NCBI RefSeq assembly: GCF_006494655.1
Contig: NZ_VHIM01000002.1
Location: 248,001-312,000 of the forward strand
DNA from: Arthrobacter agilis
GTDB taxonomy: Bacteria > Actinomycetota > Actinomycetes > Actinomycetales > Micrococcaceae
Length of the DNA stretch: 64,000 nucleotides
Reading direction: 5' to 3'
Part shown: positions 29,111 through 40,405 of the stretch, piece after piece
Numbering within the stretch: the stretch's first letter is position 1
Layout: each line of letters begins with the position of its first letter
Program-made: the position numbers and the translations under genes
The notes under the pieces: generated by a model
The model's database searches: none
Seen by the model: the letters and a program-made list of their open reading frames with translations, nothing else
What the model was told of the DNA's origin: nothing

Positions 29111-30370
29111 CTACACATTCATTTTCTGAGGGCTCGCTGAGCTCAGCGTGGGTAGGGGAAGGTCGGAGAAGACGGATTGTGCAACGAGTAGTGCGAGTCC
29201 GATGACGCCGGCCTGCTTGCCTTGGGTGGCGCCGACGATTTGGATCCTGCGGGTGGCAAGAGGAAGTGAGCGGCGGTATACGGCGCTCCTGATCCCGGCG
29301 AAGAGGTAGTCGTCAGCCGCGGCGAGCTGCCCCCCGATGACGACCACTTGGGGGTTGAAGAGGTTCACCGTGACGGCGATCGCTTCGCCCAGGAGTTGAC
29401 TGGCGTTGCGTGCCAGCCGAACCGCATCCCGGTTGCCGCTGCGCAGCAGTCGGACGGCGTCGTCCACGGAATCGGCGTCGATGCCGAGGGCCTGCAGATC
29501 ACGCAGAATTGCCCAGCCGCCCGCGTAGGCTTCCAAGCAGCCGATGTTGCCGCACCGGCACTCGGGCTCGTCCTGCACAGAGGCGGGTTTGGGGACATAG
29601 TTGTGGCCGATGTCCCCTGCGGCGCCGTCGGCGCCGTGGTGCAGCCGCCCGTCGGAGATGAGACCAGAGCCGACTCCCGTACCCACCTTCACCATCAGCA
29701 GGTGCTGGATGTGCGGGTGGGAGACCTGCTGTTCACCGAACGCCATGGCGTTGGCGTCCTTCTCCACGACGACAGGGCAGTCATAGCTGCGGGTGAACCA
29801 GCCAGGAATGTCGTACTGGTCCCAACCGGTCATGATCGGCGGATGCACGACCTGTCCGGAGGCGGTGTCCACTGGGCCGGGCACGCTGACTCCAATGCCC
29901 ACCACGGAATCGGGGAAGGCATCGGCGCCGTCCAACAGCGTGGCGAACTCGTCCGCCACCAGACCGAGGACGACGTCGGGCCCCTCTGTGACGGAGATGG
30001 TCAGCTCCACTTCGGCCAGGATGGTTCCCGCCAGATCACAGAGGCCGACGCGCATGCCGGTGGCACCGATGTCGGCGACCAACAGATGCCCGCCCGTGCG
30101 GTTGAAGGCGAAGGACTCCGCGGGGCGCCCTTTTGTGGATTCTGCTCCTGACGGGACCACGAGGTGCGTCTCAAGGAGGGTGTCGATGCGCTGGTTGATC
30201 GTGGACCGGGAAAGCCCTGTGCGTGCAGCGACTTCTGATTTCGTGAGCACAAGTCCCGAGCGAAGGAGCTGCAGGATCTCGACGGTGCCACCAGCTGCAC
30301 CGCTTGCGGCCGGTGGTGCGTACGGATTGTCGACCACTGTCGCCCCTTCGTTGCGGACTCTGCTTGCCAT
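29111..30370 (-). CDS. ROK-family transcriptional regulator
   Basis: A 419-residue repressor of the NagC/XylR type. A winged helix-turn-helix at about residues 35-75 (TKSEVAARTGLSRSTINQRIDTL) is followed by a sugar-kinase-like ROK domain with an ATP-like loop (DIGATGMRVG), ligand motif GDIGH and the zinc site CRCGNIGCLEAYAGG. The chosen ATG is the one adjacent to the mapped promoter; an in-frame start 12 codons upstream overlaps the -10. It is divergent from the sugar ABC operon and almost certainly controls it, releasing the operator when it binds the operon's sugar. Its own transcript is nearly leaderless. Confidence 0.92.
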   Translation of the reverse strand: MASRVRNEGATVVDNPYAPPAASGAAGGTVEILQLLRSGLVLTKSEVAARTGLSRSTINQRIDTLLETHLVVPSGAESTKGRPAESFAFNRTGGHLLVADIGATGMRVGLCDLAGTILAEVELTISVTEGPDVVLGLVADEFATLLDGADAFPDSVVGIGVSVPGPVDTASGQVVHPPIMTGWDQYDIPGWFTRSYDCPVVVEKDANAMAFGEQQVSHPHIQHLLMVKVGTGVGSGLISDGRLHHGADGAAGDIGHNYVPKPASVQDEPECRCGNIGCLEAYAGGWAILRDLQALGIDADSVDDAVRLLRSGNRDAVRLARNASQLLGEAIAVTVNLFNPQVVVIGGQLAAADDYLFAGIRSAVYRRSLPLATRRIQIVGATQGKQAGVIGLALLVAQSVFSDLPLPTLSSASPQKMNV

Positions 30371-30379
30371 GTTAACCCG

Positions 30380-30408
30380 ATTCGACCTCGTAGTTGCGTG
30401 CGTCACAA
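30380..30408 (-). promoter_or_regulatory. Promoter of the ROK regulator gene
   Basis: On the minus strand TTGTGA (30403-30408) and TCGAAT (30380-30385) are separated by 17 bases. The start of transcription would be about three bases before the ATG, beside a GTTAAC palindrome (30371-30376). Confidence 0.55.
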
Positions 30409-30425
30409 CCTGTAGTTATGCTAAC
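30394..30425 (+). promoter_or_regulatory. Promoter and operator of the ketose-uptake operon
   Basis: TTGCGT (30394-30399) and TATGCT (30417-30422) are 17 bases apart. GTTA-TGC-TAAC (30415-30425) is an inverted repeat overlapping the -10 and is a likely ROK-repressor site. This promoter is interleaved with the divergent regulator promoter: each -35 lies in the spacer of the other. Confidence 0.6.
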
Positions 30426-30477
30426 ACCCAACGTTACTTCGACGTACATATGGTTTTCAAAGTCAGAAGGGGCAATG

Positions 30478-31485
30478 ATGCCACAGCTACGGAATACCTT
30501 GATCGTTCTCGCCGCCACTACTGCAGGGGCTCTTTCCCTCGCCGGCTGCAGTACCACCGCTACGACCCCTGCTTCATCCGAGGGTGCGGAGGCAAAGACG
30601 GCCGCCGTGATCAAGGGCCTGGACAACCCGTTCTTCCAGTCGATGGAGGAGGGCATCAAGGCGGCGGACGATTCCATCACCGTGCAGGCAGCGCAGGACA
30701 TCACCGATACGAGTGGACAGGCGGACCGGCTGGCATCGCTGGCGGGGCAGGATTTCAGTTGCTTCATCATCAATCCGATCAGTGGGAACAACCTGCTGCA
30801 GGGAGTGGCGCAGCTGAAGTCCAGCGGCAAGACCGTCGTGAACATCGACAGCCCTGTCGATCCCGACGCCGCCGCGTCCGCGAATGCCACCCCCGACACC
30901 TACATCGGCACCGACAATGTCTCGGCAGGCAACCTCGCCGGCGAACATATGGCGAGCCTCATCGAGGATGGAGCGAAGGTGGCGGTGATCGGCGGTATCG
31001 CCGGTGATGTCACCAGCGGGGACCGCGTGACGGGGTTCACTGAAGGTCTCGGCGACAAGGGCGAGGTGCTGGAAACCGTCTCTGCGGACTGGGACCGGCA
31101 GGTGGCCCTGACGAAGGCCGGCGACCTGTTGCGGGCCAACCCGGACATCGCCGGTTTCTTCGTTGCCAACGATGTCATGGGCCTTGGCGTTGCCCGTGCC
31201 GTCGCTGATGCCGGATTGACCGGAGAGGTGTCCATCATCAGCGTCGACGGGGTTCCCGAAGGCCTCTCCGGCGTCGAGTCCGGTGAACTGACGGCGACCG
31301 TTGCACAGTACCCCTACGCCATCGGCGAGATGGGCGCGCAGGCCTGTGCGGCAGCTGCTGCAGGTGACGAACTCCCCGAGAACGTCGAGGCCCCGGTTGC
31401 CCTGGTGACCAAGGACAACGTCTCCGACGCCCTCGCCGCCGCGCCTGCGCCCTTCGAAGAATACGAAAACCCGTTCGCCCAGTAG
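30478..31485 (+). CDS. Sugar ABC transporter substrate-binding lipoprotein (FrcB/RbsB-like)
   Basis: A 335-residue periplasmic-binding-protein-like domain of the ribose/fructose cluster (Peripla_BP_4). A signal peptide with the lipobox LAGC precedes the mature protein. It has the family segments KGLDNPFFQSMEEG, then INPISGNNL, NIDSPVDPDA and GFFVANDVMGLG. Two adjacent ATGs occur; the second has better spacing to AGAAGGGG. It is first in an operon whose order (binding protein, permease, ATPase, enzyme, kinase) matches frcBCAK fructose-uptake systems. A ketohexose ligand is inferred from the downstream epimerase. Confidence 0.88.
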   Translation: MPQLRNTLIVLAATTAGALSLAGCSTTATTPASSEGAEAKTAAVIKGLDNPFFQSMEEGIKAADDSITVQAAQDITDTSGQADRLASLAGQDFSCFIINPISGNNLLQGVAQLKSSGKTVVNIDSPVDPDAAASANATPDTYIGTDNVSAGNLAGEHMASLIEDGAKVAVIGGIAGDVTSGDRVTGFTEGLGDKGEVLETVSADWDRQVALTKAGDLLRANPDIAGFFVANDVMGLGVARAVADAGLTGEVSIISVDGVPEGLSGVESGELTATVAQYPYAIGEMGAQACAAAAAGDELPENVEAPVALVTKDNVSDALAAAPAPFEEYENPFAQ

Positions 31486-31517
31486 CCGTTCAGGCCCGAC
31501 CAAGGAAGCCAGGCGCC

Positions 31518-32555
31518 ATGTCCTCCGTTCCGCATACATCCCCGCCCCCGGTAGCGAAGACACCGCCGGCAACCACTACACAACGGACCACCAGCCCGGA
31601 CGCGCCGCAGGGCGACCGCTGGCACACCAGCCTGCGGCGTATCGGGTTCTGGGCCGACCACGCTGCCATCATCGGCCTCGTGTTGCTCGTCCTCGTCTTC
31701 ACCGCTCTGAACCCGGTCTTCCTGACCCTCGGGAACGTCCAATCAATTCTCGTCGCAGCGTCCATCCTGATGGTCCTGACGGTCGGTCAGGCCTTCGTGA
31801 TCCTCAGTGACGGCATCGATCTTTCCGTTGCGTCAACCATGACCCTCGGGGTGATCGCCTTCGGTATCGCCTTCTCCCAGGGAGCAGGACTGCTCGTCAG
31901 CATGCTCTCAGCGGTCGTAGCCAGCGCACTGATCGGGCTGATCAACGGGATCCTGGTGGCCAAGGGAAAGATCACCGACTTCATCGTGACCCTGGGATCC
32001 CTCTCCGTGGCGTCCGGGCTTGCCCTGGTGCTGTCCGACGGCAAGCCAATCTCGGTCTTCAGCGTCGGTCTCGTCAATTTCTCCACGCATGGCCTGCTGA
32101 TCTTCGGCTTTCCGTTCGTCGTCGCCGCGGTGATCGCCGTCCTGGCCCACGTTCTGCTGTTCAGGACGAGGTTCGGAACGCACCTGTTCGCGACAGGCGG
32201 GTCGAAGGAGGCAGCGCAGGCGACCGGTATCAGCACGGCACGCATCAAGATCGCGGTCTACACCATCTCCGGGGTGCTTGCGGGAATCGCGGCCATCATG
32301 CTCATCGCACGCGTGGGCGCCTCGGAACCGGCAGCGAACACCACGTTCCTGCTGAACTCGGTCGCCGCGGTCGTGCTTGGAGGAGTGAGCCTCACCGGCG
32401 GAAAAGGAAACATCTTCGGCCCCATCGTGGGTGCACTGCTCCTCACCGTGCTCACCAACGGGCTCACCCTGATGAACGTGTCGCAGTTCTACCAGCCCCT
32501 GGCCGTCGGCATCGTCGTCATCCTCGCCGCCCTACTCTCGAGGTTCCAAAAATGA
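31518..32555 (+). CDS. Sugar ABC transporter permease (FrcC/RbsC-like)
   Basis: A 345-residue permease of the BPD_transp_2 family with about ten helices after a hydrophilic 50-residue N-terminus. The conserved segments LSDGIDLSVAS and GRVG/TGGSKEAAQATGISTARIK-like loop and GGVSLTGGKGNIFGPIVGALL are those of RbsC. An AGGAAG ribosome site precedes the ATG. Its stop overlaps the ATPase start by four bases, so the two subunits are translated together. Confidence 0.9.
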   Translation: MSSVPHTSPPPVAKTPPATTTQRTTSPDAPQGDRWHTSLRRIGFWADHAAIIGLVLLVLVFTALNPVFLTLGNVQSILVAASILMVLTVGQAFVILSDGIDLSVASTMTLGVIAFGIAFSQGAGLLVSMLSAVVASALIGLINGILVAKGKITDFIVTLGSLSVASGLALVLSDGKPISVFSVGLVNFSTHGLLIFGFPFVVAAVIAVLAHVLLFRTRFGTHLFATGGSKEAAQATGISTARIKIAVYTISGVLAGIAAIMLIARVGASEPAANTTFLLNSVAAVVLGGVSLTGGKGNIFGPIVGALLLTVLTNGLTLMNVSQFYQPLAVGIVVILAALLSRFQK

Positions 32556-33310
32556 CCACCACCAGCACCAGGCCCATCGTCGACGTCCGCGATGTGTGCC
32601 TGTCCTTCGGCAATGTCAAAGCACTCCAGAACGTCAGCCTGACCCTCGCGCCGGGCGAGATCACCGCGATCGTAGGAGATAACGGCGCAGGTAAGTCCAC
32701 CCTCGTCCGCTGCATCTCGGGGATCCACCGCGCCCAGTCGGGCACCATCGAATTCGATGGCGAGAAGACGCACTTCCGGAGCCCGGAAGATGCCCGGGAA
32801 AAGGGCATCGAGACGGTGCACCAAAACCTGGCATTGGTCGATGACCTCACGGTCTGGCAAAACCTTTTCCTCAACCGTGAGCTCACCCGCGGCATCGGAC
32901 CGATCCGCTTCCTCGATCGCAAAGCCATGCGCGAGGAAGCCGACCGCATGGTCTCCACCCTTGCCGTCAACGTCCCGGCCGTGAAGTCCAAGGTCCGGCG
33001 CCTGTCCGGTGGTCAGCGCCAGGCCGTGTCCATCTGCCGCGCCGCAGGCTTCAGCTCCAAGCTCGTCATCATGGACGAACCCACAGCCGCCCTGGGGGTC
33101 CAGGAGACCGCGAAAGTCGAGCAACTGATCCTCAAACTGCGCGACGACGGACACTCGGTGCTCCTCATCAGCCACAACTTCAGCCAGGTCATGCGTCTCA
33201 GCGACCAGGTCTGGGTCATGCGCGCCGGGCGCTGCGTCGCCGGCCGACGCACCACCGACACCACCGGCGACGAGATCGTCGCCCTCATCACCGGCTCCCG
33301 CGAGCAGTAG
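32552..33310 (+). CDS. Sugar ABC transporter ATPase, single-domain (FrcA-like)
   Basis: A 252-residue ATPase with one nucleotide-binding domain: Walker A GDNGAGKST (about 41-49), signature LSGGQRQAVSICRA and Walker B VIMDEPTAALG. Ribose-type systems normally use a duplicated ATPase of about 500 residues (RbsA). The single-domain form is typical of FrcA from fructose-uptake systems, and must act as a homodimer. It overlaps the permease by four bases. Confidence 0.9.
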   Translation: MTTTSTRPIVDVRDVCLSFGNVKALQNVSLTLAPGEITAIVGDNGAGKSTLVRCISGIHRAQSGTIEFDGEKTHFRSPEDAREKGIETVHQNLALVDDLTVWQNLFLNRELTRGIGPIRFLDRKAMREEADRMVSTLAVNVPAVKSKVRRLSGGQRQAVSICRAAGFSSKLVIMDEPTAALGVQETAKVEQLILKLRDDGHSVLLISHNFSQVMRLSDQVWVMRAGRCVAGRRTTDTTGDEIVALITGSREQ

Positions 33311-33330
33311 AGCAAAGGAAACCACAGAAC

Positions 33331-34206
33331 ATGGCCACCACGAATCCCCTCGGAGTCCACGCCCTCGTCTGGGCGGGGGACACCTCCCGCGAGTCCGTCG
33401 AAACCGTCATCACCCGTACCGCAGCAGCCGGCTACGATCTGGTCGAATTCTCCCTGCACGATTCCCTCAACCTCGACGTCGACCACGCCAGGAAGCTCCT
33501 CACCGACAACAACCTCGGCGTCGTCTGCTCGCGCGGACTCGCCTTCGACGCGGACGTCTCCAGCGACGACATCGCGACCGTGGAGCGTGGAGCGAAACTG
33601 CTGCAGGACTCCCTGCAAATCACTCACGAACTCGGCGGCACCCACTTCACCGGCGCCCTTTTCAGTGCCCTCGGCAAATACGGGGCACCCATGACAGCCG
33701 CTGGCAGGGACAACGTGGTGAAGGTCCTCAAGGAACTCGCCGCCGAAGCCCAGTCGCGCTCGATGACACTCGGACTGGAAATCTGCAACCGGTACGAGAC
33801 CAACGTCATCAACACCGCACACGACGCACTACGTCTGGCCGACGACATAGGCGCCGACAACGTCCTGATCCACCTCGACACCTATCACATGAACATCGAG
33901 GAGAATGATCTCGTCACCCCGGTCTACGAGGTCGGGGAGCGGCTCGGCTACGTCCACATCGGAGAGAACCACCGCGGCTACCTCGGGTCAGGGCACCTCG
34001 ATTTCACCTCGTTCTTCCACGCCCTCGAAGGCATCAACTACACGGGCCCGATCACCTTCGAGAGCTTCTCCTCCGCCGTCGTCGCCCGGGGTCTGTCCAA
34101 CGACCTCGCCGTGTGGCGGAACCTGTGGACCGACAGCGAGGACCTCGCCGTCCATGCACGGACCTTCATGGAGAATCAGCTGCATGCGAACCAGGTGAAC
34201 CGGTGA
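33331..34206 (+). CDS. Ketose 3-epimerase (D-tagatose/D-allulose 3-epimerase family)
   Basis: A 291-residue TIM-barrel sugar epimerase. The metal ligands of the family fall exactly at Glu150 (GLEICNRYET), Asp183 (HLDTYHMNIEE), His209 (YVHIGENHRGYLGSG) and Glu244 (TFESFSS), the same numbering as in Agrobacterium D-psicose 3-epimerase. These Mn/Co enzymes invert C3 of free ketohexoses, for example D-allulose to D-fructose or D-tagatose to D-sorbose. The C-terminal region (WRNLWTD) also matches Arthrobacter allulose epimerases. It stands between the transporter genes and a kinase, so it acts on the imported sugar. The precise ketose is not known. Confidence 0.88.
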   Translation: MATTNPLGVHALVWAGDTSRESVETVITRTAAAGYDLVEFSLHDSLNLDVDHARKLLTDNNLGVVCSRGLAFDADVSSDDIATVERGAKLLQDSLQITHELGGTHFTGALFSALGKYGAPMTAAGRDNVVKVLKELAAEAQSRSMTLGLEICNRYETNVINTAHDALRLADDIGADNVLIHLDTYHMNIEENDLVTPVYEVGERLGYVHIGENHRGYLGSGHLDFTSFFHALEGINYTGPITFESFSSAVVARGLSNDLAVWRNLWTDSEDLAVHARTFMENQLHANQVNR

Positions 34207-34859
34207 CATCGGAGGACCTCCTCCAGCGGATCGAGCACCTCCAGAAGGAGCACACCGGCCCGGTGATCATCGGGGTGGTAGGGGCACCCGGGGCTGGGAA
34301 GACGACCCTTGTCGAGCAGCTCATGAAGCGCCTGATGGCTGAGCAGGAGATATCCGCTCAGCAGCACTACGCGCACGTGCCGATGGACGGGTATCACCTT
34401 GCCGACGTCGAACTCTCCCGACTGGGCAGGCTCGACCGGAAAGGCGCACCCGACACCTTCGACGCCCACGGTTATGCGTCGCTCCTGCGACGTCTACGAG
34501 AACCACGCAACGCCGTCGTCCACGCCCCCGGGTTCGAACGCACCATCGAGCAACCCATCGCAGGGGCCATCCCGGTTTACCCGTCGGCGAGCACAATCCT
34601 CACCGAGGGCAACTACCTCCTGCTGGACGAGCCGGGCTGGCGTGAGGTGCGGAAGCAGTGCACGGAGATCTGGTACTGCGAGCAGGATGACGAGCTCCGG
34701 GTGGAACGCCTGATCGCCCGCCACATCCGCTTCGGGAAAAGTCCTCTTGCTGCCGCCAAGTGGGTAGCCGAAGTCGACGAGCCAAACGGACGACTCATCG
34801 GCACCACCAGGGACCGAGCGGACCTCGTCATCACGCTCGAAGAAGTTGCCGCCGGCTGA
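34203..34859 (+). CDS. P-loop kinase, FrcK/pantothenate-kinase-like
   Basis: A 218-residue nucleoside/pantothenate-kinase-fold protein with P-loop GAPGAGKTT (27-35), substrate motif PMDGYHL and the stretch LTEGNYLLLDEPGW typical of the PRK/CoaA superfamily. Similar small kinases are found as FrcK at the end of frcBCAK operons. The GTG start overlaps the epimerase stop by four bases. It probably phosphorylates the imported ketose or its epimer; that reaction is inferred from position and not from sequence alone. Confidence 0.8.
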   Translation: MTSEDLLQRIEHLQKEHTGPVIIGVVGAPGAGKTTLVEQLMKRLMAEQEISAQQHYAHVPMDGYHLADVELSRLGRLDRKGAPDTFDAHGYASLLRRLREPRNAVVHAPGFERTIEQPIAGAIPVYPSASTILTEGNYLLLDEPGWREVRKQCTEIWYCEQDDELRVERLIARHIRFGKSPLAAAKWVAEVDEPNGRLIGTTRDRADLVITLEEVAAG

Positions 34860-35804: not shown

Positions 35805-37601
35805 ATGCGTTTCGGACGTACTTCCAAGGCTTTGGGGGTCGCTGCTGTCGCAGCACTCGCATTGAGCGCCTGCGCTGCCAACACGGGAACTGAAACTCCC
35901 GAGGAGAGCACCGAGGGCGAAGCAACGGGTGGAAACATCCGCGTTGTAGAAGTGAATGCCTTCAGCTCGTTCAACTCGAACAGCTCCGAGGGCAACGTGG
36001 ACATCAACGGAAAGATCGCCTACGCGACCCACTCCGGCTTCAACTACATCAACAACGACCTCGAGGTCGTTGCGAACGAGGACTTCGGAACGATCGAGGT
36101 GCTCTCCGAGGACCCCCTGAGCGTGAAGTACACGGTCAACGAGGGCGTCAACTGGTCCGATGGCGAACCGGTCGACGGCGGAGACCTCCTGCTGTCCTGG
36201 GCGATCGGCTCGGGCTACTTCAACGACGCCAAGACCGACGATGCCGGCGAGGTCGTCTCGGGTACCACCTACTTCGACTACGCGGGTGACACGGGCGGAC
36301 TCGCGCTGACGGAACTCCCGGAGATCGGCGACGACGGCCGTTCCATCACCCTCAACTACTCGGAGCCCTTCGCGGACTACGAAGTGGCCTTCGGCACCAT
36401 GACCGAGGGCGGAATCTCGACTCCGGCCCACGTCCTGGCAGAGAAGGGCGGACTCGCCGACGAGGACGCCCTGATCGAGCTGATCGAGACCGCACCCGCG
36501 GGCGATCCGGAGAACCCCGAGGAGCGCCCCGAGGTCCAGGCACTCGCGGACTTCTGGAACACCGGCTTCGACACCAAGTCACTGCCGTCCGACACCTCGC
36601 TGTTCCTCTCGAACGGTCCGTTCATCGCCTCGGCCATCACACCGGACCAGTCGATGACCCTGACCAGGAACGCGGACTACAGCTGGGGCCCCGAAGCCAA
36701 CGTGGACGAGATCACCGTCCGCTACATCGGTGAGGCACCCGCCCAGGTCCAGGCGCTGCAGAACGGCGAAGTCGACATCATCGCCCCGCAGGCGTCGGCG
36801 GACACGGTGGAGCAGCTCGAAGCCCTCGAGGGCGTCACGGTGGAGCAGGGCAACCAGCTCTCCTACGACCACATCGACCTCAACTACAGCGGCGTCTTCG
36901 AGGACGAGAACGTGCGCGAGGCGTTCATGAAGACGATCCCGCGCGAGCAGATCGTCGAGACGATCGTCAGGAAGATCAACCCGGATGCGGAGCCGCTGGA
37001 TTCCCAGCTGTTCCTGGCCGACCAGGCACCGTACGAGGAGTCCGCCGCGAACAACGGCTCGGACGCCTTCGCCGAGGTCGACATCGAGGGTGCGCGCGAA
37101 CTGCTCGACGGCGCCACTCCCGAGGTGCGCATCATGTACAACCGCGACAACCCGAACCGCCTCAACTCGTACACCCTGATCGCCGAGTCCGCATCGCAGG
37201 CCGGCTTCAAGGTCGTCGACGGCGGACTGGGGGCCTCCGACTGGGGTTCCGCGCTCGGTAACGGCACCTACGATGCCACCATCTTCGGCTGGATCAACTC
37301 GGGAGTGGGCGTCTCTGGTGTGCCGCAGATCTTCCGCACCGGCAACGGTTCCAACTTCAACGGGTTCTCGAGCCCCGAGGCCGATGAGCTGATGGACGAG
37401 CTCATCGTCACCACGGACCCCGACGAGCAGGACGCCCTGCAGGTCCAGATCGACAAGCTGATCTGGGACTCGAAGTACGGACTGCCCCTGTTCCAGGTGC
37501 CCGGCGTCGACGCGTACAGCGACAACGTCACCGGCATCGTCTACATGCCCAACCAGACCGGCGTCTGGTGGAACTTCTGGGATTGGCAGGTTGTGCAGTA
37601 G
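35805..37601 (+). CDS. Peptide/nickel ABC transporter substrate-binding lipoprotein (family 5), copy 1
   Basis: A 598-residue extracellular solute-binding protein of family 5 (OppA/DppA). The signal peptide ends in a lipobox LSAC with Cys23. The mature protein shows the family pattern of GVNWSDGEPVDGGDLLLSW, then LNYSGVFEDENVREAFMKTI and a C-terminal GIVYMPNQTGVWWNFWDW. Family members bind oligopeptides, dipeptides, nickel or some sugars, so the ligand is uncertain. AGGAGGCGG precedes the ATG. It starts a cluster with two permeases and a fused ATPase, and a hairpin directly after it should give excess binding protein. Confidence 0.9.
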   Translation: MRFGRTSKALGVAAVAALALSACAANTGTETPEESTEGEATGGNIRVVEVNAFSSFNSNSSEGNVDINGKIAYATHSGFNYINNDLEVVANEDFGTIEVLSEDPLSVKYTVNEGVNWSDGEPVDGGDLLLSWAIGSGYFNDAKTDDAGEVVSGTTYFDYAGDTGGLALTELPEIGDDGRSITLNYSEPFADYEVAFGTMTEGGISTPAHVLAEKGGLADEDALIELIETAPAGDPENPEERPEVQALADFWNTGFDTKSLPSDTSLFLSNGPFIASAITPDQSMTLTRNADYSWGPEANVDEITVRYIGEAPAQVQALQNGEVDIIAPQASADTVEQLEALEGVTVEQGNQLSYDHIDLNYSGVFEDENVREAFMKTIPREQIVETIVRKINPDAEPLDSQLFLADQAPYEESAANNGSDAFAEVDIEGARELLDGATPEVRIMYNRDNPNRLNSYTLIAESASQAGFKVVDGGLGASDWGSALGNGTYDATIFGWINSGVGVSGVPQIFRTGNGSNFNGFSSPEADELMDELIVTTDPDEQDALQVQIDKLIWDSKYGLPLFQVPGVDAYSDNVTGIVYMPNQTGVWWNFWDWQVVQ

Positions 37602-37631
37602 CCTCACGGCGACACGAGGTACGCCTCCAGG

Positions 37632-37673
37632 AAAGGCGCCGGGACCGGGGAACTCGCCCGTCCCGGCGCCTTT
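37632..37673 (+). terminator. Intrinsic terminator/attenuator after binding protein 1
   Basis: A 14-bp perfect stem (37632-37645 pairing with 37660-37673) runs into a T-tract (TTTTT at 37671-37675). It lies between the binding-protein gene and its permeases and should reduce downstream transcription. Confidence 0.8.
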
Positions 37674-37832
37674 TTCTGTGGCACTCCGCCGAACGGCACA
37701 CCCCGTAGCCGGCGCTCTCCGCCCGCCTGGGCATGAGGGGTGCGTCCTTCGCCTGCCACTCGGATGCGCTGCACTACACTTCTGCGAAAGTACGGGAACA
37801 CCCACCCGATCCAACATTGAGGCTTCAAACCC

Positions 37833-39374
37833 ATGGTGACCTACATCGTTCGGCGTCTTGTGACGGCCGTCCTCATCCTGTTCGGTGCGTCCTTCGTCGT
37901 CTATCAGCTCACGGCACTGTCCGGTGACCCGCTCGAGGACCTGAGGGCCAGCAACGCGCCCAACCGGGAGCAGCTCATCCAGGCGCGCACCGAACTGCTG
38001 GATCTCAACACCCCGGCGCCCCTGCGCTATTTCGGGTGGCTCGCCGGTGCAGCCAAGTGCCTCGTGCCGTTCGCGGCGACGTGCGACCTGGGTACCAGCA
38101 TCCAGGGTGAGGCGGTCACGACGGCGCTCGCCCGGGCGATGGGCAACACCATCACGCTCGTCACCACGGCCACGGTGCTCGCGATCATCATCGGCGTCTC
38201 ACTCGGCATCATCACGGCGCTTCGCCAGTACAGCGGGCTCGATTACGGGGTCACCTTCCTGTCCTTCCTGTTCTTCTCCCTGCCGATCTTCTGGCTCGCC
38301 GTGCTGCTCAAGGAGTTCGGCGCCATCGGCTTCAACAACTTCCTGGCGGACCCGGATATCCCGCCCACCACCATCGTCGTGGTCGCGATCGCGAGCGGCC
38401 TCATCTGGTCCCTCTTCGCGAGCCGTTCCTGGAAACGCAAGGGCATCGCTTTCCTCCTCGGAGCGGTGGCCGCCGCAGCGCTCCTGTTCCTGCTCGATCT
38501 CGCTGACTGGTTCACCAGCCCGGGCCTCGGACCGATCGTCATCCTGGTCACCGGCGTCGGTATCGCCTTCGGCGTCGTGCTGCTCACCGCGGGGCTGCGC
38601 AACCGCAAGGCGCTGTACGCGTCGCTCATCATGGTGGCCCTCGGCCTCGTGGCGTACTACGTGGTCAACCCGATCCTCAACGGGGCCACCGTCTGGATGA
38701 TCATCATCCTCGCGGTGATCACGATCCTGGTGGGCATGGGCGTCGGCTTCCTCCTGGGCGGCTACGACCGCGGCCAGAGCATGCGGGCGGCGGCCCTCAC
38801 GGGCGTGTTCATGGGCCTGCTCATCGTGATCGACCGGTTCATGGTCACCTGGCCCGCCTACGTGGGCAACTCGCGCGTGCGCGGGCGCCCGATAGCCACC
38901 GTCGGTGCGGAGACGCCCGGACTGGACGGCACCTTCTGGATCAACGGACTGGACACCTTCACCCACCTCCTCCTGCCGACGCTGGCGCTCCTCCTGGCAT
39001 CGCTCGCGAGCTACAGCCGGTACTCCCGTGCCTCGATGCTCGAGATCATGAATATGGACTACATCCGCACCGCGAGGGCAAAGGGGCTGAGCGAGCGGAC
39101 CGTCGTGATGCGCCACGCGTTCCGCAATGCGCTCATCCCGCTCGCCACGCTGGTGGCATTCGACATCGGAGCGCTGATAGGCGGCGCCATCATCACCGAG
39201 CAGGTGTTCGCCTTCGCCGGGATGGGGCAGCTGTTCGTCCAGGCGCTCCGACGGACGGACCCCGACCCGATCATGGGCTTCTTCCTCGTGGCAGGCATCC
39301 TGGCGCTCGTGTTCAACCTCGTCGCGGATATCGTCTACTCCTTCCTCGACCCACGCGTAAGGGTGAAAGCATGA
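37833..39374 (+). CDS. DppB-like ABC permease with large internal insertion, copy 1
   Basis: A 513-residue permease. The N-terminal 170 residues and the last 150 match DppB/OppB, including the EAA loop (around MLEIMNMDYIRTARAKGLSERTVV) and the C-terminal YSFLDPRVRVKA. Usual members have 310-330 residues. Here about 170 extra residues (roughly 175-345) with four or five additional hydrophobic segments separate the family's third and fourth helices. The frame is open and shows no sign of a fused pseudogene. Its stop overlaps the next gene by four bases. What the insertion does is unknown. Confidence 0.85.
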   Translation: MVTYIVRRLVTAVLILFGASFVVYQLTALSGDPLEDLRASNAPNREQLIQARTELLDLNTPAPLRYFGWLAGAAKCLVPFAATCDLGTSIQGEAVTTALARAMGNTITLVTTATVLAIIIGVSLGIITALRQYSGLDYGVTFLSFLFFSLPIFWLAVLLKEFGAIGFNNFLADPDIPPTTIVVVAIASGLIWSLFASRSWKRKGIAFLLGAVAAAALLFLLDLADWFTSPGLGPIVILVTGVGIAFGVVLLTAGLRNRKALYASLIMVALGLVAYYVVNPILNGATVWMIIILAVITILVGMGVGFLLGGYDRGQSMRAAALTGVFMGLLIVIDRFMVTWPAYVGNSRVRGRPIATVGAETPGLDGTFWINGLDTFTHLLLPTLALLLASLASYSRYSRASMLEIMNMDYIRTARAKGLSERTVVMRHAFRNALIPLATLVAFDIGALIGGAIITEQVFAFAGMGQLFVQALRRTDPDPIMGFFLVAGILALVFNLVADIVYSFLDPRVRVKA

Positions 39375-40405
39375 CCATCCAGAATTCTCCGGACCTCCCG
39401 GAAGGCGAAGCGGCGACCGTCACCGGTCCCACCCACCCCGTGCCCGAGACCGAGGCGAAGGGCCTCTCCCAGGGGCAGATCGTCCGCCGGAAGTTCTTCG
39501 ACAACACCGCGGCGATCGTCAGCCTCGTGATCTTCGCGATCATCTTCGTCCTGGCGTTCACCTCCGTCGGTTTCGCCGGCATCCCCGGGTGGTGGAAGTA
39601 CAACCACACCGAGTTCGTGCCACTGCTCGACGGCGGCGTCCCGACGATCACGGGCCCTTTCAGCTGGGGTGAGCACCCCTTCGGCCAGGACTCGATCGGC
39701 CGTGACTACTTCGCGATGACCATGCGGGGGACCCAGAACTCCCTCATCATCATGTTCATCATCGGAGCCCTCGCCGGGCTCGTGGGTGTGGTCGTGGGAG
39801 CCTGCTCGGGTTACTTCCGCGGCTGGCCCGAGGCCGTGCTCATGCGCTTCACCGACGTCATCATCATCATCCCCGTGGTGCTCGCCGCCGCGACGCTCGG
39901 CGAGGCCGTCAACCGTTTCGTCGGTGCCGGTGCCCAGATCTGGCTCCTCGGTCTCTTCCTCGGGCTCGTGCTGTGGACCGGACTCGCCCGACTGGTCCGC
40001 GGTGAGTTCCTCAGCCTGCGCGAGCGGGAGTTCGTCGATGCCGCGAAGATCGCGGGAGCCTCCAACACCCGGATCATCTTCAAGCACATCCTGCCGAACG
40101 CCGTGGGCGTCATCATCGTGAACACCACGCTGCTGATGTCATCGGCAATCCTCCTGGAGACGGCCCTGAGCTACATCGGCTTCGGCGTGAAAGCTCCCGA
40201 CGTGTCCCTCGGCCTGATCATCAGCCAGAACCAGGAGGCCTTCCAGACCCGCCCCTGGCTGTTCTGGTTCCCGGGCCTCTTCATCGTGCTGATCTGCCTC
40301 TGCATCAACTTCATCGGCGACGGCCTGCGCGATGCCTTCGACCCGCGGCAGAAGAAGTTCAACGCAGGCCGGGTCAAGGATGCCCGGAAGCCGGCAGCGG
40401 CGTGA
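39371..40405 (+). CDS. DppC-like ABC permease, copy 1
   Basis: A 344-residue permease with an N-terminal hydrophilic tail (about 45 residues), six helices and the EAA loop (FVDAAKIAGASNTRIIFKHI). The segment GQDSIGRDYFAM is the typical OppC/DppC lead into the second helix. It overlaps the preceding permease by four bases and pairs with it to form the channel. It is followed eight bases later by the stop of an antisense gene. Confidence 0.92.
   Translation: MTIQNSPDLPEGEAATVTGPTHPVPETEAKGLSQGQIVRRKFFDNTAAIVSLVIFAIIFVLAFTSVGFAGIPGWWKYNHTEFVPLLDGGVPTITGPFSWGEHPFGQDSIGRDYFAMTMRGTQNSLIIMFIIGALAGLVGVVVGACSGYFRGWPEAVLMRFTDVIIIIPVVLAAATLGEAVNRFVGAGAQIWLLGLFLGLVLWTGLARLVRGEFLSLREREFVDAAKIAGASNTRIIFKHILPNAVGVIIVNTTLLMSSAILLETALSYIGFGVKAPDVSLGLIISQNQEAFQTRPWLFWFPGLFIVLICLCINFIGDGLRDAFDPRQKKFNAGRVKDARKPAAA

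Follow-up and report, generated by a model that had tools for sequence, protein, structure and literature searches.

A conserved actinobacterial sugar operon joining a D-allose-type binding protein, a ketose epimerase and an FrcK-like kinase, with D-allulose as a possible substrate

Background

Several described sugar loci share parts with the system treated here. The frcBCAK operon of Sinorhizobium meliloti holds a CUT2 transporter and the kinase FrcK beside a divergent regulator; frcB has its own promoter, and no epimerase is named for the locus in the available text of the source (PMC10433430). In Escherichia coli, alsRBACEK unites transporter, epimerase and kinase for D-allose in one repressed operon, in which AlsE acts on allulose 6-phosphate, phosphorylation coming first, and the pathway ends in fructose 6-phosphate (PMC5893763). 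Loci for D-psicose (D-allulose) are also in print: deletion of a permease gene shows that one in Klebsiella pneumoniae supports growth on this sugar (PMC6020474), and rhizobial psiR-psiA is described as a sugar operon under a divergent, D-psicose-responsive repressor of the LacI family (PMC7445875). The present subject is a five-gene operon in a 64,000-nucleotide stretch of Arthrobacter agilis DNA (contig NZ_VHIM01000002.1, positions 248,001 to 312,000; the window), which encodes the binding protein, permease and ATPase of an ATP-binding cassette (ABC) transporter, a ketose epimerase and an FrcK-like kinase. It is proposed to serve the uptake of D-allulose, its C3 inversion to D-fructose and phosphorylation, a reading about evenly poised between right and wrong.

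D-allulose is the C3 epimer of D-fructose and a commercial low-calorie sugar. Its consumption by soil actinobacteria is little documented in the literature found. The operon provides an uncharacterised clade of epimerases, a receptor with its matching regulator for use in biosensors, and a direct means of finding out what the FrcK-family kinases phosphorylate, which was not settled in S. meliloti.

Results and discussion

Conservation of the operon

The gene set is genuine and conserved, an operon for sugar use in actinobacteria, and no chance assembly: homologues of the ROK protein, binding protein, permease, ATPase, epimerase and kinase occur jointly at 40 of the 80 best epimerase loci. A species-genome collection was scanned with an epimerase alignment; at least 590 stretches matched, 553 were confirmed as relatives and the best 80 were kept, counts on which are biased toward close relatives. 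Genes were called by codon scoring, except at two loci of lower G+C, L062 (open reading frame list) and L088 (tblastn only). A kinase homologue lies within 3.5 kb downstream of the epimerase at 65 of the 80 loci, and a divergent ROK homologue is present at 54; at nine of the 40 full-set loci, an additional epimerase gene follows that of the ATPase and precedes the usual one. Twelve loci show none of the sought genes at the thresholds used; among them, L063 ends 165 bases before the gene and L091-L094 carry other ABC genes. Arthrobacter cheniae is the closest match that bears a name, with an epimerase 93% identical (records of the host genome itself are possibly absent from the listing).

In a class sample of 394 genomes, the epimerase (E <= 1e-80) was found in 17 genomes at 18 places, and the kinase (E <= 1e-30) in 152. 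The two genes adjoin in five of the seven genomes (the window's among them) whose epimerases are at least 65% identical. Another 11 places have epimerases of 46-53% identity; as judged from coordinates among the matches listed, a kinase adjoins none of these, and among the same matches four of the ten genomes concerned have a kinase elsewhere. In a family-level sample, the epimerase (E <= 1e-40) is present in 6 of 149 genomes, again with the window's included. A scan of viral contigs gave no relative. The plasmid neighbours H2 and H15 carry epimerases less than 48% identical in the company of different ABC genes, and the PLSDB gene tables, which are incomplete, annotate no kinase there.

Binding protein and transporter

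By sequence and profile, the binding protein is nearest to the D-allose-binding proteins. The window protein alone scores 143-151 bits on these and their designed variants and 126 on a ribose-binding protein. The family profile, whose alignment includes two proteins of other ABC loci (L078 and L083), gives 296-313 bits on D-allose-binding proteins, the natural ones at 305-313, as against 166-219 on ribose-binding proteins and 176 on 4wut. Identity to the E. coli D-allose-binding protein is 35.1%, and the corresponding model NF007254 gives 166 bits against a cut-off of 335. At the positions presumed to contact D-allose, which were matched by motif because the numbers past residue 91 mostly misfit the chain count, all 42 family members have Lys, both Asp, Arg, Trp175 and Gln, and 41 have Asn; three of the 42 proteins are from two-domain ABC loci. 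A structural model (mean predicted local distance difference test score, pLDDT, 90.6) has the D-allose-binding proteins and 5dte as its leading fold matches (Z 35.4-36.2). The ATPase matches the AlsA model NF007253 only at positions 3-244 of 510. The transporter had been called one of the fructose type in the initial annotation; this fits its single-domain ATPase and permease, whereas the solved structures closest to its binding protein are those of D-allose-binding proteins.

Epimerase

The metal ligands announced in the initial annotation, Glu150, Asp183, His209 and Glu244 in the protein's own numbering, are exactly present, together with the substrate-side catalytic residues E156, H186 and R215. 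The step from these ligands to a D-psicose 3-epimerase does not follow, and they were ruled out as proof of it: all four are common to 85 of 85 members of the epimerase cluster as well as to AgDAE and MetLRE, and the NCBIfam equivalog for D-psicose 3-epimerase, NF051856, scores 154.7 bits, below its cut-off of 300. In the PDB, the enzyme matches 3-epimerases of D-allulose, L-ribulose and D-tagatose, the best being 8yeb and 5zfs (E about 1e-81); AgDAE is 46.8% and MetLRE 47.5% identical to it. The window enzyme groups with the main body of the best-80 set and, as far as its sequence can tell, belongs to an uncharacterised branch, to which the catalytic chemistry would carry over from the relatives, but not the substrate.

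Kinase

The best match of the kinase, by sequence and profile and by fold, is 3c8u, titled a putative fructose transport system kinase (Z 25.9, root-mean-square deviation 1.9 over 203 aligned residues), followed by pantothenate and uridine kinases. The epimerase-kinase pair persists with other transporters, namely an SSF symporter at four loci and a two-domain ABC transporter in some Burkholderiaceae; therefore, at those loci, the kinase is a partner of the epimerase rather than of the transporter. A fixed membership of the kinase in an FrcBCA transporter was thus ruled out, the kinase accompanying the epimerase under other transporters and occurring in 152 of the 394 genomes against 17 with the epimerase.

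These observations bear on another reading, in which the operon is a fructose uptake system, the kinase tunes the transporter without phosphorylating sugar, and the epimerase is an accessory that scavenges allulose formed from fructose. The single-domain ATPase and the kinase resemble the frc set, and the available text on S. meliloti reports that frcK mutants lose about half of their fructose uptake and grow more poorly on fructose, that frk is the fructokinase gene, and that a possible effect of FrcK on the transporter is proposed (PMC10433430). Plasmid-borne frcK rescued neither the frk mutant nor the frcK mutant (PMC10433430), a weak test because the same plasmid also failed in the latter. 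Besides the persistence of the pair under other transporters, it speaks against this reading that none of eight kinase loci lacking a full-length epimerase neighbour (seven genomes for which no epimerase is listed, plus the additional G031 kinase) has a binding protein, permease or ROK homologue nearby. On balance, a transporter-tuning role seems quite improbable.

At one of these eight loci (L108), a weak ATPase match lies 4.8 kb from the kinase; at that of the second G031 kinase (L109), a gene read by eye as mannitol-dehydrogenase-like stands alongside. At L107:7151-7384 (genome G175), an epimerase piece of about 78 residues, 77% identical, directly precedes the kinase and is perhaps an operon remnant.

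Proposed pathway

In the proposed scheme for D-allulose, the ROK protein would repress the shared promoter region when no sugar is present, and the sugar or its product would lift the repression. From the AlsB-like lipoprotein, the sugar would be taken over by the permease with its single-domain ATPase, a transport role suggested by family and a sugar suggested by context. The epimerase, whose residues are those of the metal-dependent two-glutamate ketose 3-epimerase mechanism, would then invert C3 of the free sugar, before any phosphorylation, to give D-fructose, and the FrcK-like kinase would phosphorylate D-fructose, or a sugar pool equilibrated with it, so that a fructose phosphate could enter glycolysis. 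An end point at D-fructose is suggested by the GH32-like genes of related operons (see below), the mannitol-dehydrogenase-like gene of G031, the S. meliloti frc locus and the match to 3c8u. With the kinase fed by fructose, as the frc, GH32 and mannitol-dehydrogenase neighbourhoods suggest, the incoming epimer would be D-allulose, which also fits the AlsB-like receptor and the lack of an aldose isomerase gene in the operon. The initial annotation had foreseen the uptake, inversion and phosphorylation of a rare ketose; a single regulated operon with transporter, ketose epimerase and FrcK-like kinase is supported and a rare ketose is plausible as its substrate, but the phosphorylation step leans on a kinase family whose S. 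meliloti member, in the available text, is not shown to be a fructokinase and is called unclear in its role by the authors (PMC10433430).

That standing of FrcK is one of several points that weigh against the D-allulose scheme. The operon kinase need not be the sole route to a fructose phosphate, because the host encodes a 1-phosphofructokinase-family protein (271.1 bits, above the TIGR03168 cut-off of 216.4 and below the TIGR03828 cut-off of 292) and a fructokinase-like PfkB protein (125.9 bits, far below the cut-off of 450). Of the seven closest genomes of the class sample, two, G375 and G501, have the rest of the operon with no kinase at E <= 1e-30 or beside the epimerase, and in G031, one of the five kinase-adjacent genomes, the kinase gene has a one-base frameshift. 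In the binding protein, Trp16 of the D-allose-binding protein is replaced by Phe in the window and in 39 of the 42 members. Ribose-binding proteins match the model at Z 34, within 1-2 Z of the leaders; since this value falls between those of different forms of the D-allose-binding proteins (other forms at 32.6-33.7), the fold alone does not decide the sugar.

The remaining such points concern the epimerase. In a tree calculated without MlLRE, AgDAE and MetLRE are placed with the tandem-type epimerases (15 rows, support 89/97), and the window enzyme stands in a separate sister group; because several deep joins are open or on long branches, only the separation of the clades is used here. No solved structure lies inside the window's clade among the PDB matches. 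Among the 75 members that are at least 50% identical, His43 is kept in 73 and falls in a gap in two; MetLRE has Leu there, AgDAE Met, and the ten tandem-type epimerases Pro, Ile or Val. The residue of MetLRE, Leu45, faces O4 of bound D-allulose. The residues of 7cj9, a form of MetLRE, fit the published numbering wherever compared. Finally, all three nearest characterised epimerases, AgDAE, MetLRE and MlLRE, are reported to prefer L-ribulose, AgDAE with 121.3 U/mg against 77.0 U/mg on D-allulose and MlLRE with 230 against 5.3 (PMC8167858).

The last point favours a ketopentose operon, in which uptake of L-ribulose (or D-ribulose) would be followed by C3 epimerisation to xylulose, which the kinase would phosphorylate at C5. 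Phosphorylation at C5 is what the uridine kinase and phosphoribulokinase relatives do, the kinase fold being common to uridine, pantothenate and phosphoribulokinases, and the ribose-binding proteins follow closely in fold. However, the natural D-allose-binding proteins are far ahead on the binding-protein profile, the window epimerase lies outside the AgDAE/MetLRE clade, and the operon has no pentulose-phosphate gene. This reading is considered unlikely. Still less probable, and in fact very unlikely, is an operon for D-tagatose or D-sorbose, which C3 inversion interconverts, with the kinase acting on D-sorbose or D-tagatose instead of fructose. The available text describes the ketose 3-epimerases of this family as broad in substrate range (PMC8167858), and the name D-tagatose 3-epimerase is borne by several chains among the matches; on the other side stand the D-allose type of the binding protein and the lack of a tagatose-phosphate kinase, epimerase or aldolase gene in the operon. 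The choice of substrate thus lies between D-allulose, which is favoured with moderate confidence, and the ketopentoses.

The frameshift in G031, the nearest relative, is due to an extra base at L018:6979-6981 that splits the kinase frame and may be a sequencing error or decay; the second kinase of this genome, at L109, reads through in one frame.

Variant operons in relatives

The surprising parts of the comparison are versions of the operon with tandem epimerases or with a nucleoside hydrolase gene. Ten of the 80 loci (L041, L045, L046, L048, L052, L056, L060, L069, L070 and L080) have two epimerases in tandem, the additional one sharing 37-40% identity with the window enzyme. The first of the pair groups with AgDAE and MetLRE and the second with the window enzyme. 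That both clades are represented at one locus argues for different jobs of the two, which is a further point against the D-allulose scheme.

Four loci have a gene for a nucleoside hydrolase homologue inserted after that of the ATPase and ahead of that of the epimerase (L049:6989-7963, L050:7009-8004, L064:6974-7993 and L073:6983-7972); the L050 copy, the only one of the four run through Pfam, matches PF01156 with 252 bits. The binding protein at these loci is of a different type, the four proteins keeping the Lys and having Gly in place of Trp175. A GH32-like gene follows downstream in three of the operons (L050, L064 and L073; Pfam test on L050 only). At L051, a nucleoside hydrolase gene (PF01156, 353.6 bits) adjoins the ROK gene. 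In Mesorhizobium, a deaminase homologue directly follows the epimerase, without a kinase (L061:8924-9409 and L067:8952-9434; PF00383 tested for L061), and a nucleoside hydrolase homologue lies farther away on the opposite strand.

The nucleoside hydrolase genes in the four operons and at L051, and the deaminase genes at the two Mesorhizobium loci, are the basis of a reading in which the epimerase branch has its own specificity and its home role concerns the ketose part of psicofuranosyl nucleosides of the psicofuranine/angustmycin type. The window operon would then be a monosaccharide version taking up leftover D-allulose, and the tandem epimerases of Microbacteriaceae would perform two different inversions in one pathway. 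No paper joining psicofuranine with a nucleoside hydrolase was found in the open library searched, other papers retrieved on this matter dealing with biosynthesis, and this reading is held to be distinctly improbable; if the nucleoside link were true, it would amount to a catabolic route for psicofuranine-type nucleoside antibiotics.

About 3 kb upstream at L061, an ABC ATPase and two permeases appear nucleoside-type by eye. At L062 (Brucella), genes for an AlsB-like binding protein, a two-domain ATPase, a permease, a LacI protein and an oxidoreductase precede the epimerase, the families being assigned by eye.

Comparison with described systems

With frcBCAK, the window operon has in common the CUT2 transporter, the FrcK-type kinase within the operon and the divergent regulator. 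It differs from that locus in its epimerase and probably also in its binding protein, which ranks with the D-allose-binding proteins. FrcA is a single-domain ATPase, as is that of the window. The likeness to alsRBACEK lies in a binding protein of probably the same type, in the single, in the window probably repressed, operon of transporter, epimerase and kinase, and, under the proposed scheme, in the end of the pathway (PMC5893763). In contrast, the window epimerase is of the PF01261, free-ketose kind and would precede the kinase; the als kinase is an ROK allose kinase, whereas the window kinase is of another superfamily; and AlsA has two domains, its model covering 510 positions, as against one domain in the window ATPase. 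AgDAE (5zfs), MetLRE (7cj9) and MlLRE (3vyl) share the fold family, metal ligands and catalytic residues of the window epimerase (PMC8167858), but the window enzyme belongs to the sister clade and has His43 where AgDAE and MetLRE have Met and Leu in the pocket. The divergent regulator recalls psiR-psiA; PsiR is of the LacI family (PMC7445875), that of the window of the ROK family.

The window operon is therefore als-like with the last two steps swapped, plus an frc-like ATPase and kinase, and is placed in neither class, because defining features of these are absent or uncertain in it. The combination had been thought little described. No paper on it was found among the top-ranked matches of the open literature, but with the D-psicose loci and the als operon in print, it combines known parts in a new way and is not a new kind of system.

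Regulator, coordinates and neighbouring genes

The five frames of the initial annotation, at 30478-34859, are borne out by Pfam or NCBIfam matches above cut-off (Table 1); for the kinase, the best Pfam matches are all under cut-off or at weak scores. The binding-protein gene starts with ATGATG, so that 30475 is an equally good start. The permease and ATPase genes overlap by four bases, and so do the epimerase stop and kinase start (GTGA).

Table 1. Positions and evidence for the operon and its divergent regulator in the window
Feature	Coordinates	Strand	Evidence
ROK-family regulator with winged helix-turn-helix (HTH)	29111..30406	-	PF00480 201 bits, PF13412 23.9 bits; both above cut-off
Conserved promoter/operator region (predicted function)	30413..30472		TAGTTA..CTA, CGTTA.TTC, CATATG..TTTCAAA; Shine-Dalgarno-like AGAAGGGG at end; invariant columns in 5 aligned intergenic regions
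Sugar-binding lipoprotein, D-allose-binding-protein-like	30478..31485	+	PF13407 155.4 bits (cut-off 35.1); lipobox LAGC
CUT2-type permease	31518..32555	+	PF02653 128.5 bits (cut-off 26.8)
ABC ATPase, one domain, 252 aa	32552..33310	+	PF00005 115.6 bits (cut-off 25)
Ketose epimerase	33331..34206	+	PF01261 129 bits (cut-off 31.1); metal ligands E150, D183, H209, E244
FrcK-like P-loop kinase, pantothenate/uridine kinase fold	34203..34859	+	GTG start; NF006743 275.8 bits (cut-off 227)

The ROK gene is divergent from the operon across a shared intergenic region, which is kept in an alignment of five close relatives, the window included. A palindrome search of 40 intergenic regions found no common operator. 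The ROK protein carries an HTH (HTH_24) and scores 122.6 bits against the allose kinase cut-off of 253; it is probably a repressor of the operon.

The host genome comprises 3.24 Mb in 48 contigs. On its contig C45, two HldE-like heptose kinase/adenylyltransferase genes (L120 and L121) lie about 5 kb apart, in an actinobacterium, with scores of 355.9 and 284.5, below the cut-off of 521. In the window, about 0.9 kb past the kinase, the genes at 35805-40405 resemble, by eye, those for an ABC binding protein of the oligopeptide type with two permeases; they form a separate unit.

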